A stretch of DNA of 64,000 bases from Rhizobacter sp. GTDB lineage: Bacteria > Pseudomonadota > Gammaproteobacteria > Burkholderiales > Burkholderiaceae_C. Below, piece after piece: positions 43,459-53,680 of this stretch; position 1 is the stretch's first letter, and each line of letters starts with the position of its first letter. The translations under genes were made by a program, and so were the position numbers. The notes beneath the pieces were generated by a model. That model worked only from the letters and a program-made list of their open reading frames with translations, had not been told where the DNA came from and did not search any database. The stretch covers positions 1 through 64,000 of the forward strand of contig JANXZA010000084.1 in assembly GCA_025355745.1 (NCBI GenBank). The letters are read 5' to 3'.

Positions 43459-44406
43459 TCACCGAATCGCCACGCCCCATGGCAGCTTACCGACCGCGAT
43501 GTCACTGAGCTTGAGGTTGCTTTCGGTGTCGATCACCGAGACCACGCCCGAGCGCCCGCAGGCCACGTACAGCTTCTTGCCATCCGGCGTGAGCGCCATA
43601 TTCCAGGGCCGCTGGCCGACCGGGATGGTGGCCACGATCGTGTTACTGGCCGTGTCGAGCACCGAGACGCTCGCGTCGCCGCCGTTGGAGATAAAGACCC
43701 GCTTGCCGTCCGGGTGCACGGTGATGCCGTTGCTGCGCAGCCCGGCCTTGACTTTCGCCAGCACCTTGAAGGCAGTTGCGTCCAGCACATAGACCTCGTT
43801 GGAGTTCTCGGTTGCGACGTAGGCGCGCTGGCTGTCGGGCGAAAAGCCGAGGCCGCGGGGCCGGTCGCCGACCGGAATCTGCGCGACCTGCTTGCGCGCC
43901 GCGAAGTCGATCACGTTCACGGCCTCACCTTCCTCGGCGCTGACGAAAACGTACTTGCCATCGGGAGTGAACACGGCGTGTTCGGGGTTCTTGCCACCGA
44001 CTTGCACCACGAACGCTTTACGGTTGGTGCGCGTGTTGACGAATGCCACGTCGTTGCTTTCTTCAACCGCCACGGCCAGCCAGCGGCCGTCGGGCGAGAT
44101 GCCCACGCCCTCGGGCGACTCGCCGAGCGCGATCACGCCGCTTTGCTTGCGCGCCACCAGATCGACCATCACCAGCCGGTTGTTCGGCTGGTCGCTCACG
44201 TACGCGGTGCGGCCGTCGAGGCTGACCACGGTGCCGCGCGGCTTCTTGCCGGAAGCGATCTCGGCGACCACCTGGTCGGTGGCGGTGTCGATCACGCTCA
44301 GCGTGCTCGAACCCTCGTTCGGGACGTAGGCGAACGGTGCCGCGCACACCGCGCCGGGCACCATCACGGCCACTGCACAGATCGAAAAAAATGATCGAAT
44401 CAACAT
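43459..44406 (-). CDS. YVTN/PQQ-catabolism-associated beta-propeller protein
   Basis: Signal peptide and repeated VIDTATDQVVAEIASGKKPRGTVVSLDGRTAYVSD motifs. Confidence 0.88.
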   Translation of the reverse strand: MLIRSFFSICAVAVMVPGAVCAAPFAYVPNEGSSTLSVIDTATDQVVAEIASGKKPRGTVVSLDGRTAYVSDQPNNRLVMVDLVARKQSGVIALGESPEGVGISPDGRWLAVAVEESNDVAFVNTRTNRKAFVVQVGGKNPEHAVFTPDGKYVFVSAEEGEAVNVIDFAARKQVAQIPVGDRPRGLGFSPDSQRAYVATENSNEVYVLDATAFKVLAKVKAGLRSNGITVHPDGKRVFISNGGDASVSVLDTASNTIVATIPVGQRPWNMALTPDGKKLYVACGRSGVVSVIDTESNLKLSDIAVGKLPWGVAIR

Positions 44407-44579: not shown

Positions 44580-45143
44580 CTAGGCCGGCCGCTTGAACCA
44601 GATGCGGGAAAAGACCGCGTCGCGGTCGACCAGCGCATGCTTCAAGGCTGCCGCCACATGCACCGCGATGAGCCCGCAGAACAGGAATGCCGTGACGATG
44701 TGGATGCCGTTGAAGACGGCGTACCACGACGGCGAAACAGGGCCCCAGGGCTTCAGTGCAAGGCCGAAAAACTTGACGCCGTACTTGCTGAAATTGGAGC
44801 CGAGATAGCCCGACAGCGGCATCACCAGCATGCAGGCGTATAGCAGGCGGTGGCTCCACTGCGATGTGCTGCGCTGCCATTCCGACAGCGCCAGCGGCCA
44901 GGCCGGCGGACGATGCTTCAGCCGCCACACCAGCCGCACCACGATCAGCAGCGCCAGCACGATGCCGAACGATTTATGCAGGTTGATGGTGGCCGCCCGG
45001 GCCGGCGTGCCACGCGGGGCGATGTCGTCGAGCAGGAAGCCGAAGGTGATTTGCGCCAGCAGGGCCGCGCCGATCAGCCAATGCAGCGTGATCGCGACGC
45101 GGCCATAGCGCGCTGCAGGCGTCGATGCGTGGGCCGGATTCAT
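44580..45143 (-). CDS. Cytochrome b561-family membrane protein
   Basis: RYGRVAITLHWLIGAALLAQITFGFLL; HKSFGIVLALLIVVRLVWR; HIVTAFLFCGLIAVHVAAALKH. Confidence 0.9.
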   Translation of the reverse strand: MNPAHASTPAARYGRVAITLHWLIGAALLAQITFGFLLDDIAPRGTPARAATINLHKSFGIVLALLIVVRLVWRLKHRPPAWPLALSEWQRSTSQWSHRLLYACMLVMPLSGYLGSNFSKYGVKFFGLALKPWGPVSPSWYAVFNGIHIVTAFLFCGLIAVHVAAALKHALVDRDAVFSRIWFKRPA

Positions 45144-45360: not shown

Positions 45361-46041
45361 ATGTCTCTGAGTGTCACCACATTGCTGCGGGCCCGCCGAA
45401 ACACTGCCACGGCAGCTTCGGCGCTGACCGAGCCGTTGTGGTTCGAGTGGCTGGCGTTGGCCGGCCTGTTCGTGTTCGCGGCCTGGCTGCTCGGCGTTCG
45501 CGGCGTGTGGGCCTTGCTGCTGCACTCCGACCCGACCGGCATCACCGCAGTGATCATCGTCGTGTTCGTGGTGGGCACCTTGTGGAGTGGGGTCCGGGCC
45601 CGCGAACTGATGCGCGAACGCCGGGCCGCCGCCGATCGAACGCCGGGTTGGGCGGCCGACTACTGGGCCGCGCTGGGCACGGCGCCGATCGACGAGACTG
45701 CGCCACTCGACCTGCTGCTCGAGCGCACCCACGGCCCGCACTCCACCGCCTGGTGGGTCAACGCGATCCAGCTCAAGCTCGGGCTGCTCGGCAAGGTGAT
45801 CGGCTTCTCGATCCTGGCCTTGCAGATCGGCCAGATCCAGAACTTCGATCCGGCCCAGGCGCAAGACCTGCTGAAGAGCCTGACCACCGGCCTGGGCGTG
45901 GCGCTGCTGACGACGATGGTTGGCCTGGTCGGCAACATCCTGCTCGGCGTGCAGCTGACCCGGCTCGACCGGTTCGCCGATGAACTGGTGGCGGCCGCGC
46001 AGCAGCACGGCCTGTCGGTGCGCGCGCGCGCCGAAGGGTGA
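45361..46041 (+). CDS. MotA/TolQ/ExbB-type proton-channel protein
   Basis: TM segments and KVIGFSILALQIGQIQNFDPAQAQDLLKSLTTGLGVALLTTMVGLVGNILLGVQLTRLDRFADELVAAAQ. Confidence 0.82.
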   Translation: MSLSVTTLLRARRNTATAASALTEPLWFEWLALAGLFVFAAWLLGVRGVWALLLHSDPTGITAVIIVVFVVGTLWSGVRARELMRERRAAADRTPGWAADYWAALGTAPIDETAPLDLLLERTHGPHSTAWWVNAIQLKLGLLGKVIGFSILALQIGQIQNFDPAQAQDLLKSLTTGLGVALLTTMVGLVGNILLGVQLTRLDRFADELVAAAQQHGLSVRARAEG

Positions 46042-46047
46042 GCGTCG

Positions 46048-46677
46048 ATGCGCCATCGCCGCAACGCCCGCGAACCGGAAGTCGATCCGTTCTACGACAT
46101 GCTGTTCAACATGCTGATCGCGTTCGTGTTCTGCTTCATCGTGGCACTGCTCGCGATGAACCCGAAGACCAGCAAGGCCGGCGACGTTCCGGCCAAGGCC
46201 GAATACATCATCACCTTGTCGTGGCCCGACTTCGACCCCAACGACATCGACACCTGGGTGCGCAATCCGGCCGGCGAGGTGGTCTGGTTCCGCAACCGCG
46301 AGGCCGGGCTGATGGTGCTGGACCGCGATGACCGCGGTGAGTCGAACAACGCGATCGTCGTCAACGGCAAGCGCATCGTCACGCAGTTCCGCCAGGAGGT
46401 GGTGACGATCCGCGGCGTGGTGCCGGGTGAGTACGTGGTCAACGCCCACTACTACGAATCGAAGGATGTGCAGGCCAGCGACCCGAAGGCCGGCCAGCCG
46501 GTCGATGTGACCTTGTCGGTGGTGAAGGTGAACCCGCGCGCCGAGGTCGTCTTCAATGGCCAGCACCGCCTGGCCAAGCGCGGCGACGAGGCCACGCTGG
46601 TGCGCTTCTCGGTTCGCGCCGATGGCAGTGTGGGCGGTATCAACACCTTGCCAGCGCGTCTGGTGGAGCGTCTTTGA
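46048..46677 (+). CDS. ExbD/MotB-like single-TM protein with DUF2135-like beta domain
   Basis: DPFYDMLFNMLIAFVFCFIVALL (TM-entry Asp) then ITLSWPDFDPNDIDTWVRNPAGEVVWFRN ... VVPGEYVVNAHYY. Confidence 0.65.
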   Translation: MRHRRNAREPEVDPFYDMLFNMLIAFVFCFIVALLAMNPKTSKAGDVPAKAEYIITLSWPDFDPNDIDTWVRNPAGEVVWFRNREAGLMVLDRDDRGESNNAIVVNGKRIVTQFRQEVVTIRGVVPGEYVVNAHYYESKDVQASDPKAGQPVDVTLSVVKVNPRAEVVFNGQHRLAKRGDEATLVRFSVRADGSVGGINTLPARLVERL

Positions 46678-46680
46678 ATC

Positions 46681-47178
46681 ATGGGTCTGGCACTCGTCCT
46701 CTCGTTCGCGGCGCTGCTGCTGCTGATCCTCCTGGCGCTGCTGTGGTCGCGCTGGCCGGGGTGGCTGAAGGGCGTGCTGGTGCTCGGGGTGACCGGGCTG
46801 TATTTCTTCGGCAACGATGCGGTGCACCAGATCTGGGGCGTGCCGAGTGTCGATGCACTGCCCGAGCGTTTCGTGATGCTGGCGGCGGCGGTCGACGAGC
46901 CGGCGGGCAAGGCGCCGGGCTCGATCTTCATGTGGGTGAGCGAGCCGCGCGAGGGCGTCAAGAAGCTCGAGCCGCGCGCCTACCGCGTGCCGTACACAAA
47001 GGAGTTGCACGCCCAGATCGATGCCGGCGTGCGCAAGGGCCGCGACGGTATCAGCCAGATGGGCACCGCCGAGGCGAAGGCCGGCAACGCGCGCGGCGTC
47101 GGCTGGCTCAAGCCCGGCAGCGACGAGCAGGAGATCAAGATCCGCGACATGCCGTCGCCGCAGTTGCCGGAGAAATGA
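46681..47178 (+). CDS. Hypothetical two-TM protein of proton-channel cassette
   Basis: Start 4 nt after the previous stop; MGLALVLSFAALLLLILLALLWSRWPGWLKGVLVLGVTGLYFFG. Confidence 0.65.
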   Translation: MGLALVLSFAALLLLILLALLWSRWPGWLKGVLVLGVTGLYFFGNDAVHQIWGVPSVDALPERFVMLAAAVDEPAGKAPGSIFMWVSEPREGVKKLEPRAYRVPYTKELHAQIDAGVRKGRDGISQMGTAEAKAGNARGVGWLKPGSDEQEIKIRDMPSPQLPEK

Positions 47179-47179
47179 G

Positions 47180-47887
47180 ATGCGCACGGCGGCCGCTGTG
47201 GTCCTCTCGTCGCTGCTGCTCGCAGCCTGCGGCGCGGCGCCGGCTGACGACGCGCTGTTCCCGCTCGCCGAGGGCCGGCGCTGGACCTATCAGGTCTCGA
47301 CCGTGGTCGATGAAGTCGATGTCGCGGCCCGCGAGACGCTGGTGCTGGCAAACCGTGGCGTCGACACCATCGACGGTGCGCCCTCGTGGCGCCGGCGCAG
47401 CGACAGCGGCATCGAATACTGGCTGCGCAGCGATGCCACCGGCATCTACCGCATTGCCAGCCGCAACCCGCTCGAGCGCGAACCGCAGCTCGATGCGCCG
47501 CGCCGCTACGTGCTGCAAAAGCCGTATGCGGTGGGCACCGAGTGGGAGGCTCCGACGACGGCCTATGTGCTGGCGCGCAAGAACGAAGTGCCGCGCGAAG
47601 TGCGCTACGCATACAAAGCGTTTCCGATGCATTACCGGATTGAAGCGCTGGCCGAGAAGGTCCAGACTCCAGCCGGAAAGTTTGAAGGGTGCCTGCGGGT
47701 GGCAGGGCGGGCCGAACTCCGGCTTTATGTGGAGGCACTGCTCCAGTGGCGCGAGATTCCGCTCTTCACGCTCGAGTGGTATTGCCCCGGCGTCGGGCTC
47801 GTCCGCCTTGAGCGCAAGGAGCCGTCACCGTCGCGATTCATGGTCGGTGGCAGCGTCACGATGGAGTTGACGTCGTGGCAGCACTGA
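47180..47887 (+). CDS. Hypothetical lipoprotein of proton-channel cassette
   Basis: MRTAAAVVLSSLLLAACGAAP lipobox; tightly packed with previous gene. Confidence 0.75.
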   Translation: MRTAAAVVLSSLLLAACGAAPADDALFPLAEGRRWTYQVSTVVDEVDVAARETLVLANRGVDTIDGAPSWRRRSDSGIEYWLRSDATGIYRIASRNPLEREPQLDAPRRYVLQKPYAVGTEWEAPTTAYVLARKNEVPREVRYAYKAFPMHYRIEALAEKVQTPAGKFEGCLRVAGRAELRLYVEALLQWREIPLFTLEWYCPGVGLVRLERKEPSPSRFMVGGSVTMELTSWQH

Positions 47888-48051: not shown

Positions 48052-49732
48052 AATGAAACGCTTTCTTACCCCTGTCGCGCTCGGGCTGACGCTCGGCCTG
48101 GCAGCCACTGCGCAAGCGCAGAACTGGCCGGTCTACGGTGGCGACACCGGCAACACGCGCTACAGCGCGTCCAGCAAGATCAACACCGGCAACGTCGGCA
48201 AGTTGAACGTCGAATGGGCGCTTCAGCTCGGTTCACTGCGCTCGCAGGAATCGACGCCAATCCTGGTCGGTGACACCTTGTTCGTGACTTCGTCGTTCGG
48301 CCCGAAGAACACCTTCGCGGTCAACGCCAAGACCGGCGTGGTCAAGTGGACCTACCAGCCCGAGGTGCCGAAGGGCATCGATCAGTACGCCTGCTGCGAC
48401 GTGAACAACCGCGGCGTGGCTTACAACAACGGCAAGATCTTCCTCGGCCGGCTCGATGCGCACATCGTCGCACTCGACGCCAACACCGGCAAGGAACTGT
48501 GGAAGACGCCGATCGTCGACTTCACCGGCGGCTCGGTGATCACCTCGCCGCCCACGCTGGTGAAGAACCTCGTCATCACCGGCTTCGGCGGCGGCGAGTA
48601 TGGCGTGCGCGGTGCCATCGTGGCACTGGATCAGAACACCGGCAAGGAAGTCTGGCGCACCCAGACCGTGCCGCAACCGGGCGAGCCCGGCGGCGACACC
48701 TGGAAAGGCGATTCGGGCAAGAACGGTGGCGGCGTGGCCTGGCACATCGGCTCGTACGATCCGAAGCTGAACCTCGTCTATTACGGCACCAGCAATCCGT
48801 CGCCCTGGTCGGCCTCTGTGCGTGGCAACGACAGCTCCGACATCGGCAAGTTCAGCAACCTTTACAGCGCGTCGATCCTGGCCTTGAATGCCGACACCGG
48901 CAAGATCACCTGGCACTACCAGACCACGCCGCACGACGCGTGGGACTATGACGGCGTGAACGAACTGGTCTTCGCCGATCTGCCGTTCGACGGCAAGAAG
49001 GTGCCGGTGCTGATGCAGGCGAACCGCAACGGCTTTTTCTACGTGATCGACCGCGCCAGTGGCAAGCTGCTGTCGGCCAAGCAGTACGTCGAAGGCGTCA
49101 ACTGGGCCACCGGCATCGACATGAAAACGGGCGCGCCGATCGAGGCGGCCGGCAACGCCAAGCGCCCCGGCATGAAGCGCAAGGCCAGCAACATCTGCCC
49201 GAACCTGATCGGCGCGAAGAACTGGATGCCGATGAGCTACGACCAGCAGACGGGTCTGGTCTACATCCCGACCATGAACCTGTGCATGGACCTGGAAGGC
49301 ATCGACGCCGAGTACAAGCGCGGCGCGTTCTTCCTGGGCGTGAACTTCGACCTCGGCAAGTTTGGTCCGGGCGGCCACGGCGGCGGCGTCAAGGCCTGGG
49401 ACCCGGTGAAGCAGAAGGAAGTCTGGTTCAACAAGGACGAACTGCCGTTCACCGGCGCGATGCTGAGCACCGGCGGCGGGCTGGTCTTCCACGGCGACAT
49501 CAAGGGCTGGTTCAAGGCGCTCGATGCCAAGACCGGCAAGACGCTGTGGAAGTTCAACGCCGGCTCGGGCATTTCGGCCGCGCCGATGACGTATGAGCTT
49601 GACGGCAAGCAGTACATCGCCGTCGTCTCGGGCCGCACCTTGTCGGTCCCCGCGTTCTTCGGCGCGCTGGGCGAGAAGATGGTCGCGGCCAGCCCCGAGG
49701 GTGGCACGCTCTACGTGTTCTCGGTCAAGTGA
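48052..49732 (+). CDS. PQQ-dependent alcohol dehydrogenase (D-x-D, lanthanide-type motif)
   Basis: Tryptophan-docking propeller; YACCDVNNRG vicinal disulfide; TPHDAWDYDGVNE. Confidence 0.93.
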
Positions 49733-49746
49733 CGGAGTGAAGTGAC

Positions 49747-50958
49747 ATGACGATCCGCGGCAAGCTGAAGGCGCTCGCCTTCGCTGCGGCCCTGGCCGCC
49801 GGCGCCCTCGTGGCACCGGCGGCCAGGGCCGAACCCTTTCGTGTTTGCGCCGACCCGGACAACCTGCCCTTCAGCAAGTCCGAAGGTCCCGAGCGCGGCA
49901 TGTATGTTGAACTCGCCGAACTGGTTGGCAAACAGTTGAACCAGCCGGTCGAATACACCTGGTACTACACCCAGATGCAGCGCCGCGCGTTGCGCAACAC
50001 GATCCTGCAAGACGCTTGCGACGCGGTGTTCGCGTTGCCCGCGAATGCCGAATACAAGGTTCGCGGGCTGCAGCGCTCACAACCATTCTTTCAGGTCGGC
50101 TACGCCATCGTGGCCGCGCCCACGTTCGCATTCAAGAGCCTGGACGATCTGAAGAGCCAGCGCATCGGCGTGCAGTACAGCAGCACGCCGCACCTGCTGG
50201 TGAACCAGCTCGAAGGCTTCAAGTCGACCACCTACCGCTCGGCAGAGGAAGCGCTCGGTGCACTCGCCAAGGGCGAGGTCGACGTCGCGTTCCTGTGGGG
50301 GCCGGTGGCCGGCTACGAAAACAAAACGCGCTGGGCCAGTCGCTGGCGCGTGACGCCGGTCTCGGGGCACGACCTGTCGGGCGAAGTGGCGGTGGCGGTG
50401 CGCAGCGGCAAGGACGATCTGGCCAAGGCGATCGACCGGGCGCTGCTCGAACTCAAACCGCAGATTGCTGCACTTGCAGACAAATACGGCTTCCCGCGCG
50501 AGGCGCCGATCAACCTGGCGCTTGCGCAAGCGCCCACCAAACTGCGGGCAACGGCGTTGGCACAGGTGCGCGTGCCGGCGTCGCTGGTGGTTGCGGTGAA
50601 CGACACCGTGCCGGCCAAACCCGCCAAGTCAAAGGGTGCTGGTGCGGCGAAGAATTCGGCGCCGCCCGAGGTGGCTCCGGCAGCCCCCGCAGCGCCTGTG
50701 CTGTCGGAAGCCGCCCAGGCCGGACGGGTCCAGTTCAACGACCGCTGTTCGCACTGCCACGGCTCCGACGGCTACAGCCCGGTGCGCGAGCGCGACGTGC
50801 GTTACCTGAAAATGCGCTACAGCGACAAGTGGCAAGAAACCGCCACCGTGACGATAAAGAACGGCCGCCCCGATGCCGGCATGCCGACCTGGAAGGACAT
50901 CCTGAAGGAGTCCGACCTGCAGCAGATCATCAGCTTTCTCGGAACGGTGCAGAAGTAG
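49747..50958 (+). CDS. MoxJ/XoxJ-like periplasmic binding protein fused to C-terminal cytochrome c
   Basis: EPFRVCADPDNLPFSKSEGPERGMYVELAELVGKQL; Pro/Ala linker; VQFNDRCSHCHGSDGYSP ... GRPDAGMPTW. Confidence 0.88.
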   Translation: MTIRGKLKALAFAAALAAGALVAPAARAEPFRVCADPDNLPFSKSEGPERGMYVELAELVGKQLNQPVEYTWYYTQMQRRALRNTILQDACDAVFALPANAEYKVRGLQRSQPFFQVGYAIVAAPTFAFKSLDDLKSQRIGVQYSSTPHLLVNQLEGFKSTTYRSAEEALGALAKGEVDVAFLWGPVAGYENKTRWASRWRVTPVSGHDLSGEVAVAVRSGKDDLAKAIDRALLELKPQIAALADKYGFPREAPINLALAQAPTKLRATALAQVRVPASLVVAVNDTVPAKPAKSKGAGAAKNSAPPEVAPAAPAAPVLSEAAQAGRVQFNDRCSHCHGSDGYSPVRERDVRYLKMRYSDKWQETATVTIKNGRPDAGMPTWKDILKESDLQQIISFLGTVQK

Positions 50959-51081: not shown

Positions 51082-51771
51082 TCAATGCCGGCTCGGCGCC
51101 CGCCCCAGCAGTTCCGTCGTCTCTGGGTGTTTCGCCTGGCGCGCGATCTCGGTAGCGCTCAGGCCGCGGTCATCGCGAAGCGTCGCGTTCGCGCCGCGCG
51201 CGAGCAGCAGCTTCACGACTTCGGTCTGGCCCTGTCCGGCGGCCCACATCAGCAAGGTCAGCCCGTGTTCGTAGGGGGTGTCGATGTCGATGCCAGCCCC
51301 CAGCAAGGCGGTCACCGCGAGCGCATGACCCTCGCCGGCCGCGTACACGATGGCAGGCTTGTTCATGCGGTCCAGCGGTTCGGTTCGCGCGCCCGCTTCG
51401 AGCAGGCGTTTGACGAGTTCGGCATTGCCCGCGTAACTGGCAGCCATCAGCGGCGTGACCCCTTCGACCGACGCAAGCCCGACATCGGCACCCTGGCGAA
51501 GCATCAGGTCGGCCAGCACCAGGTCGCCTTTCTCGCAGGCGAACAGCAACACGGTCTTGCCGACTCGGTTGCGTGAATTGGGCGCCGCGCCGCGGGCCAG
51601 CAGGCCTGCCACCTTCGCCACATCATCCTGGCGGCCGGCCACCAGCAACTGTGCGTTCAGCTCAGGATGGTTCGCAGCCTGGGCTTGAACCTTTGAGGTG
51701 CTGCCAAGGCCGGCGGCCGTGGCGATGGCGACGGCGACGGCGCCAGCCAGGGTGTGTTGAAGAAGCGACAT
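51082..51771 (-). CDS. Secreted ankyrin-repeat protein
   Basis: Repeats such as [32 protein letters not shown]; start uncertain (ORF extends to 51849). Confidence 0.88.
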
Positions 51772-51940
51772 GCGGCTTGGATATGGCATGGAACTCATGA
51801 GGAGCTGTGGGCTCGGAACCGGGGCTGCATTGTCGCCGCAGCGGGACATACACCAATGTCATTGCGCCCGAACGTGGTTAGTCTTTCAACCCGGTCTGCA
51901 ACCCGGCAGGGCACATCAGATCAACAACAGGGAGAAAACG

Positions 51941-53680
51941 ATGACAGGAAAAATGTCCAAGCGGTTCGGGTGGCAGATCGGCGCAATCGCAAGCGCCGCA
52001 GCGTTGAGCATGGTGGCGGGCAGTGCCTTCGCCCAGGCCGAGATATCGGGCCAGGCCGCACCCACGGGTTCGCCGGTGCCGAAGAACGTCTCGGTGTCGC
52101 AAGGCCAGCTTGACGCGGCTGACAACGACAGCGCCAACAACTTGCACTCGAACACCAACTATGCGCAGACCCGGTACCACCCGGCGGCGCAGATCAACGC
52201 TTCGAACGTCGCCAAGCTTCGCCCGGCATTCCAGTTTCAGACCGAGGTGCTCGAATCGATGCAGACCGCGCCCATCGTGGTCGACGGCATCATGTACATC
52301 ACGACGTCGTACAACCATGTGTACGCGCTCGACGCCGTGTCGGGCAAAGAGTTCTGGCACTACAAACACAAGATGGGCGCGGTGACGACCTATTGCTGCG
52401 GCCCGAACAACCGCGGCGTGGCCATCATGGGCGACCGCCTCTACATGGGCACGCTCGACGCGAAGCTGATCTCTCTCGACGCCAAGACCGGCAAGGTGGT
52501 GTGGACCACGCAGATCGCCGACCCGGAATCGGGTTACTCGGAGACGATGGCGCCGGTGGCCGTGAACGGCAAGATCCTGATCGGCACGAACGGTGGCGAA
52601 TACGGCATTCGCGGCTTCGTCAAGGCCTTCGACGCGAAAGACGGCAAGCTGGTCTGGACCTTCGACACTGTGCCGGCCAAGGGCCATGAAGGCGTGTGGG
52701 CCGTGAACGACGCGACCGGGCGCAACATGAAGCGCGACATCGCGGCCGAGAAAGCGCAGTTCGCGAAGAACGGCGATTTCTACAAGACGCTGGGCGGGGG
52801 TGTGTGGATGGCGCCGGCCGTTGACAAGGACAGCAACACCGCCTTTTTCGTGGTCGGCAACCCCAGTCCCGACCTTTACGGCGCGGAGCGGCCGGGCGAC
52901 AACCTGTACACCGATTCGATCGTCGCAGTCGATCTGAACACCGGCGCATACAAGTGGCACTACCAGTACGTCGCCCACGACGTGTGGGACCTGGACGCAG
53001 TGTCGCCCGTCATCCTGACCGATGCGATGGGCAAGGACGGCAAGATGCGCAAGGTCGCCATTCACGGCGGCAAGACCGGCCATGTGTACGTGCATGACCG
53101 CGCCACGGGCGAATTGATCCGTTTCAGCGAGGCCATGATCCCGCAGGAGAACATGTGGGTGCTGCCGACCAAGGACGGCGCGCGCATGCTGCCGGGGGCC
53201 AATGGCGGTGTCGAGTGGAGCCCGATGGCGGTGAACCCGACTCTTCGCATGGCATACGCCGCGAACCTGCACCAGCCGATGACCTACCACGTCGAGGATG
53301 CCAAGTACCCCGGCGGCAAGCTCTGGCTCGGCGGCGCTTTCAAGACCATCGCCAGCGAAAAGCAGTGGGGCCGACTGGCGGCAGTCAATATCGACACCGG
53401 CAAAATGGCGTGGAAGTTCGATACCGAGCAGCCGCTCATCGGCGGCGTGCTCGCCACTGCGGGCGGCCTGGTGTTCAACGGCGAGGGCAACGGCCTGTTC
53501 CGCGCCTTCGACGCCCGCGATGGCAAGATGCTGTGGGAGTACCAGTGCGGCGCCGGCGTGAACGCGCCGGCGGTGTCGTACATGGCGGGCGGCAAGCAGT
53601 ATGTGGCGGTCGCGGCAGGCGGCAACACGCAGCTCGACTTCAAGCGCGGCAATTCGGTGATCGTGTTCGCGCTGCCCTGA
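51941..53680 (+). CDS. PQQ-dependent methanol/ethanol dehydrogenase family protein
   Basis: [50 protein letters not shown]. Confidence 0.93.

Follow-up and report, generated by a model that had tools for sequence, protein, structure and literature searches.

A conserved three-gene set that may encode an ion-driven envelope motor in Proteobacteria and their phages

Four closely spaced genes of a Rhizobacter species, the first of which had been predicted to code for a channel subunit of the MotA/TolQ/ExbB type, raise the question of what kind of envelope machine they specify and which of the four belong to it. They are situated in a stretch of 64,000 nucleotides that was analysed as a whole and is referred to here as the window. 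The genes occupy positions 45361-47887 of the plus strand, with the same coordinates and strand as in the original prediction, and are designated A (226 aa, 45361..46041), B (209 aa, 46048..46677), C (165 aa, 46681..47178) and D (235 aa, 47180..47887). The packing is as tight as had been claimed: the start of B follows the end of A after 6 nt, and the two-transmembrane protein C and the predicted lipoprotein D come with almost no spacing (3 nt between B and C, 1 nt between C and D).

A gene for a cytochrome b561 (44580..45134, minus strand) lies upstream of and divergent from A, and a beta-propeller protein related to propellers of PQQ catabolism is encoded at 43459-44406. About 165 bp downstream of D, a PQQ-dependent alcohol dehydrogenase is encoded on the plus strand (48053..49732; TIGR03075, 640 bits at a cut-off of 480), followed on the same strand by a MoxJ/XoxJ-like quinoprotein-associated binding protein fused to cytochrome c (49747..50958; TIGR03871, E 9e-35, below cut-off) and further downstream by a second PQQ dehydrogenase (51770-53680). 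The opposite strand carries, between the two dehydrogenase genes, a gene for an ankyrin-repeat protein whose N terminus resembles a signal sequence (51082-51849); the start of this gene overlaps that of the second dehydrogenase as called in the ORF list.

Conservation and distribution of the A-B-C unit

Scans with an alignment of B retrieved 431 relatives from bacterial genomes and 188 from IMG/VR, and 80 loci of each kind were fetched. This collection is biased to the sequences most closely related to the query. Wherever the flanks are long enough, A, B and C adjoin each other in constant order, namely in 78 of 78 Burkholderiales loci, 79 of 79 viral loci and 31 of 31 further bacterial loci. 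The raw counts for the fetched loci are 78/80 and 79/80, respectively, the three remaining matches starting less than 150 bases from a contig end. Furthermore, one C is present beside B in each of the 53 B-positive genomes examined. Conserved co-occurrence, which the original prediction had proposed to look for by gene-neighbourhood searches, is therefore found, but the unit consists of three genes and not of the four that had been put forward: A, B and C always stay together, and D is optional. The existence of relatives in the same order (80 Burkholderiales, 80 IMG/VR and 32 further bacterial loci) together with dN/dS values well below 1 establishes that the genes A to D are real. For A, B and C, dN/dS amounts to about 0.02-0.4 in the pairs tested, values indicating that all three are under purifying selection.

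Within the family to which the window belongs, B was found in 31 of 201 genomes. An additional, 32nd match in this family is short and weak, is located inside a large open frame and probably represents a DUF2135-type protein. Strains of Rubrivivax, Curvibacter and Variovorax are among the Burkholderiales with relatives. Broader sampling yielded carriers in 20 of 399 genomes at the level of the phylum and in 32 of 274 genomes, equivalent to 26 of 222 genera, at the level of the class, counts in which a few of the weakest matches are DUF2135-type proteins rather than B. In an unrooted tree of B, 50 chromosomal copies fall into a single clade (SH-aLRT 99), which is distinct from the main body of phage sequences, and temperate phages resembling phage 16-3 form a separate deep group together with Azospirillum. 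The idea that the chromosomal copies descended from phages was abandoned, since the tree has no root and, upon inclusion of gammaproteobacterial copies, shows one chromosomal clade beside the phage sequences.

Properties of the subunits

Hydropathy analysis predicts four transmembrane helices for A. The protein from the window scores slightly below the cut-off of PF01618 (21.4 against 22.9; E 2.2e-4), and a match to this family is obtained for all 60 aligned relatives (E <= 0.01; best 2e-10). When solved structures were searched, the A sequence alone gave nothing informative and only the A profile produced useful matches, namely MotA (8gqy, 8e-6), TolQ (7e-4) and PomA (2e-3), in addition to ExbB and, weakly, ZorA. 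Residues G141, G144, G148, T185 and G188, invariant in 60 sequences, are located in two pore helices, and a conserved GxxGxxxG helix and an A-L-x-T-T helix are the characteristic motifs. The PF01618 matches of all relatives, the profile matches to solved structures and the invariant pore-helix residues together place A in the MotA/TolQ/ExbB superfamily, just as originally predicted. In Rhizobium phage RHph_N3_19 (L032 5646-5987), A comprises 113 aa with about three transmembrane helices when its annotated start is used, which would be unusually small for this channel superfamily.

B takes the position of MotB or ExbD and contains one transmembrane helix in 58 of 58 relatives according to hydropathy. 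Residue D17, at the start of this helix and encoded by the codon at 46096..46098 of the plus strand, is invariant in 66 of 66 sequences with a mean identity of 33%. A membrane Asp of the ExbD/MotB/ZorB type had been expected at this place and is indeed present, but it is D17 of the motif DPFYD that never varies and not D13, the D of 'DPF', which is absent from the phage and Azospirillum relatives. Further residues invariant in the same 66 sequences are W59, D66, D68, L91, R93, D94, D95, G97, E117, R122 and G127. The acidic cluster formed by D66, D68, D94 and D95 could constitute a metal site.

The AlphaFold model of B (mean pLDDT 84.7) consists of a transmembrane helix (residues 14-37) and an all-beta periplasmic domain (residues 53-199). 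No family in Pfam, NCBIfam or PADLOC accommodates the protein from the window, searches of the PDB with the B sequence and with the B profile gave nothing informative, and Foldseek found no match to the model in the PDB at E <= 1e-3, with no ExbD, TolR or OmpA-like domain among the matches listed. Among viral models, four matches reached E <= 1e-3, none of them usefully named. Our findings agree with the earlier statement that the periplasmic part is neither ExbD-like nor OmpA-like, and the canonical ExbD/TolR fold, for which a check by structure prediction had been suggested, did not appear. The resemblance to DUF2135/YfaP-type domains put forward at the same time stands as remote homology but not by the Pfam criterion. 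An hhalign comparison of B with E. coli YfaP gave E 2.5e-5 and a probability of 75 across the conserved core, and the B profile recovers two proteins assigned to DUF2135 by Pfam, at 1.4e-8 and 2.7e-4; on the other hand, the cut-off of PF09906 (DUF2135) is reached by only one of the 66 members, and by that one at E 0.0037. As far as can be judged from profile comparison, the periplasmic domain of B is remotely related to YfaP/DUF2135.

C possesses two transmembrane helices in 53 of 57 family members as deduced from hydropathy. In the AlphaFold model (pLDDT 87.7), these are followed by a periplasmic domain with the order beta-beta-beta-alpha-beta-beta, which is the order of strands of an OB fold. 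Foldseek matches of the model in the PDB are weak and largely concern OB-fold proteins, none of them being significant (E <= 1e-3). Comparison with Pfam, NCBIfam and PHROG assigned C to no known family, and its sequence could not be related to that of TolA or TonB. The protein ends with a conserved motif, PxPQLPEK, which reads PSPQLPEK in the window and FYELPPPKLPEK in phages, where it is preceded by a Gly-rich linker. In four gammaproteobacterial loci, C is present as a tandem duplicate (L251 6767-7809, L255 6901-8008, L256 6137-7243 and L257 8699-9753).

Cassettes in phages and the two bacterial versions

The IMG/VR contigs are identified as phage by genes for terminase, portal protein and T4-type sigma factors that lie close to the cassette in some of the loci. 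Seventeen of the 80 viral contigs with the cassette exceed 100 kb and one has a length of 527 kb. Dereplication at 90% leaves 55 viral loci. According to single-linkage clustering, B and C are present in all of them and A in 54; the next most frequent neighbour occurs in 11, such that A, B and C are the only conserved genes. Families for A, B or C are not available in PHROGs. Isolated phages carrying A-B-C infect Rhizobium and Sinorhizobium; they are reached with B alone, as tblastn searches against isolated phages with one A and one C protein from IMG/VR gave no match. They include the classic temperate phage 16-3, in which A, B and C correspond to p038, p040 and p042, all three unnamed.

The variable neighbours of the viral cassettes comprise genes for a ClpP-type protease, a ClpS-like adaptor, an Hsp20-like protein and an SbmA/BacA-like protein (L117, L138, L182, L190 and others), each in 6-8 of the 55 loci; the latter three received their names by visual inspection of the sequences alone. 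A gene for a secreted trypsin-like serine protease is located closely 5' of A-B-C in temperate phages of rhizobia and in one 16-3-like prophage (L195 18247-21135, which is 16-3, L196 7093-10235, L197 6842-9767 and L225 7711-10633). In several of these loci, the cassette is interrupted between its genes by small ORFs or by genes for homing endonucleases.

The simplest guess for the phages is that the bare A-B-C set acts on the host envelope during infection. A related explanation, which we regard as rather unlikely, is that the cassette serves as an exclusion or envelope-protection device, with the motor altering or stabilising the host envelope so as to render an infected or lysogenic cell resistant to superinfection or to early lysis. 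It would be in line with the occurrence of the cassette both in large phages of strictly lytic appearance and in temperate ones such as 16-3, with all subunits intact and D17 invariant, and with its location in 16-3, where it is flanked by the immX genes of superinfection immunity and by the integrase gene and follows the gene for the periplasmic trypsin-like protease. However, the position of the cassette varies among phages, where it is found near topoisomerase and late sigma genes, terminase, portal or lysis genes, and no single stage of infection is therefore implied.

In bacteria, the unit occurs in two versions, with and without D, and three genomes carry both. D has a signal peptide with the lipobox LAAC and matches PF21347 (DUF3108) at E 1.2e-4, which is under the cut-off. 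It was found in 78 of 80 Burkholderiales loci, in none of 80 viral loci and in 6 of 31 other bacterial loci. A PQQ alcohol dehydrogenase gene is nearby in five of the six loci from the class sample that contain D and in none of the 25 that lack it. The dedicated lipoprotein that had been considered part of the cassette must consequently be reinterpreted as an optional addition tied to loci for PQQ alcohol dehydrogenases. Across the 201 genomes of the family, a PQQ alcohol dehydrogenase over cut-off is present in all 31 carriers of B and in 47 of 170 non-carriers (Fisher p 2e-15) and pqqC in 24 of 31 and 24 of 170, respectively (p 4e-12), seven carriers being devoid of pqqC; these statistics ignore shared ancestry and are inflated by relatedness among the genomes, as is the finding that at least 18 of the 31 carriers, against 1.3 expected, have a PQQ dehydrogenase gene at a distance of no more than 20 kb from B. 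In one Bradyrhizobium-like locus (the genus is tentative), the cassette resides among quinoprotein-relay, MoxJ-like and PQQ-ABC genes. Most Bradyrhizobium-like loci, the version without D and the phage cassettes lie away from PQQ genes. From gene neighbourhoods, the PQQ linkage appears strong but specific to the version that contains D.

These observations bear the possibility that the complex is a device for quinoprotein maturation or delivery, in which proton motive force would be used to load PQQ, Ca2+ or a lanthanide into PQQ dehydrogenases. Such a function is suggested by the linkage to genes for PQQ alcohol dehydrogenase, PqqC and MoxJ-type proteins in Burkholderiales, by the Bradyrhizobium-like locus with its quinoprotein-relay genes and by the acidic cluster of B, which could bind the metal. 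In 25 of the 31 other bacterial loci and in the phages, however, no PQQ gene is found near A-B-C; a quinoprotein role can therefore be no more than a special function of the version with D, and we deem this explanation unlikely.

The D-less loci have recurrent neighbours of their own. An L,D-transpeptidase is encoded in 12 of them, a gene for a DUF302 lipoprotein is located immediately 5' of A in 13, and a gene for an FHA-domain protein immediately 3' of C in 14. A cytochrome b561 gene near A, as present in the window, also occurs in 11 gammaproteobacterial D-less loci. In a Bradyrhizobium-like locus (L220 6036-8240 and 10531-12658), A-B-C is followed by genes for a calcineurin-like phosphoesterase and for a Ser/Thr kinase containing a universal-stress domain; genes for a histidine kinase and a LuxR-type regulator lie divergent to it. 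Together with the gammaproteobacterial FHA protein, these neighbours provide hints that the cassette may be under phosphorylation control. Whichever of the two bacterial versions is considered, the neighbouring genes encode periplasmic or envelope proteins, in agreement with a task in the envelope.

Comparison with known motors and proposed function

A very improbable explanation is that of a diverged but otherwise ordinary Ton/Tol system, with A as ExbB/TolQ, B as ExbD/TolR, C as TonB/TolA and D as a Pal-like lipoprotein. The logic of the gene order is alike (channel, axle, transducer, lipoprotein), TolQ and ExbB were both found in the PDB with the A profile, and TolQRA-Pal and ExbBD-TonB also combine a channel, a single-transmembrane subunit with an Asp and a third membrane subunit, joined in the D-containing version by an outer-membrane lipoprotein. 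The periplasmic domains of B and C are nevertheless unrelated to those of the Ton and Tol proteins: B is all-beta and has neither a family match to ExbD/TolR nor their fold, and C combines two transmembrane helices with an OB-like domain instead of one helix with a TolA/TonB C-terminal domain and gives no TonB or TolA match. D is DUF3108-like and not an OmpA-like Pal, and the genes often lie beside PQQ or L,D-transpeptidase genes. The canonical Ton/Tol identity was thus rejected, being largely refuted by the folds of B and C.

Least probable of all is an anti-phage defence of the Zorya type, a ZorA/ZorB-like stator with effectors, which shares with the present proteins the use of a MotA/ExbB-superfamily channel and a single-transmembrane partner outside motility but was rejected because the matches of A to ZorA are sub-significant (PADLOC E 0.018; 8qyh E 0.47), A lacks the long cytoplasmic tail of ZorA, B is not OmpA-like, B, C and D have no PADLOC match, the models for ZorB, ZorC and ZorD/ZorE remained unmatched, no ZorC/D/E-like gene adjoins, and large phages themselves carry the full A-B-C set.

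Ion-driven motors as listed in a paper from 2025 are MotAB, PomAB, LafTU, AglRQS, ZorAB, SiiAB, TolQR and ExbBD (PMC12204202). MotAB and PomAB resemble the system described here in the four transmembrane helices and the channel motifs of A, for which MotA is the closest among solved structures, and in the single Asp-bearing transmembrane helix of B; unlike in MotAB and PomAB, B has no OmpA-like peptidoglycan-binding domain, the cytoplasmic loop of A is very short, and an additional obligate subunit, C, is present. YfaP/DUF2135 (PF09906), to which the periplasmic domain of B is remotely homologous, differs in that YfaP has no channel-subunit partner. A MotA/ExbB-superfamily gene on phage genomes has been reported for Lentisphaerae phages, where it is a single gene for a TonB energiser, the passages on it describing no B or C partner (PMC11361711). 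Searches of databases and of the open-access literature (phage stators, DUF2135 with TolQ, PQQ with ExbB) returned no description of the A-B-C set. To our knowledge, none of the motors named in the above list is made up like A-B-C.

The explanation we prefer on balance, although with reservation, is that A, B and C form an undescribed three-subunit envelope motor driven by proton motive force, which works in the manner of TolQRA and ExbBD-TonB but is distinct from both, serves the PQQ locus in its D-containing version and acts on the host envelope in phages. Given that A is of the channel type, that the single transmembrane helix of B has an invariant Asp and that the two always occur as a pair, an ion-driven stator is the quite probable identity of A plus B. 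The three proteins would then be the membrane subunits of an inner-membrane machine energised by a proton (or sodium) motive force. A would build a ring-like channel, and B would provide the axle helix, with Asp17 carrying the ion through A and the beta-sandwich domain moving in the periplasm. By analogy with 5:2 ion-driven motors, an A:B stoichiometry of 5:2 may be assumed. Since C is always present, it is, by analogy, a natural candidate for the part played by TolA or TonB, whose position it would hold although it is unrelated to them; this obligate third subunit may relay the movement via its periplasmic OB-like domain and the conserved proline-rich tail. In the window, an outer-membrane lipoprotein would be added, and the operon would serve the adjoining periplasmic locus for PQQ-dependent alcohol oxidation, most likely by powering a step in the outer membrane or the periplasm such as delivery of cofactor, metal or substrate or upkeep of the envelope. 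In this scheme, ion flow, assembly at a ratio of 5:2, the relay of force by C and the tasks in bacterial and in infected cells are inferred.

That the three genes are maintained jointly by numerous Proteobacteria and numerous phages suggests an envelope machine of wide occurrence. Somewhat more tentatively, we propose that A-B-C represents a distinct, undescribed class of envelope motors driven by proton motive force, with its own axle and its own transducer, that may extend across the Proteobacteria, where its versions lie beside genes for PQQ alcohol oxidation and L,D-transpeptidases, and may be operated during infection by phages, which carry it complete. The cultured temperate phage 16-3 and the PQQ-linked operon of the window render both roles amenable to experiment. 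For a virus to come with a motor of its own would be unexpected. Recognised ion-driven stator systems are few, and if the proposal is true, A-B-C, with its unrelated periplasmic parts and its inseparable occurrence in 26 of the 222 genera sampled from the GTDB class of the window and in many phages, would widen this class.
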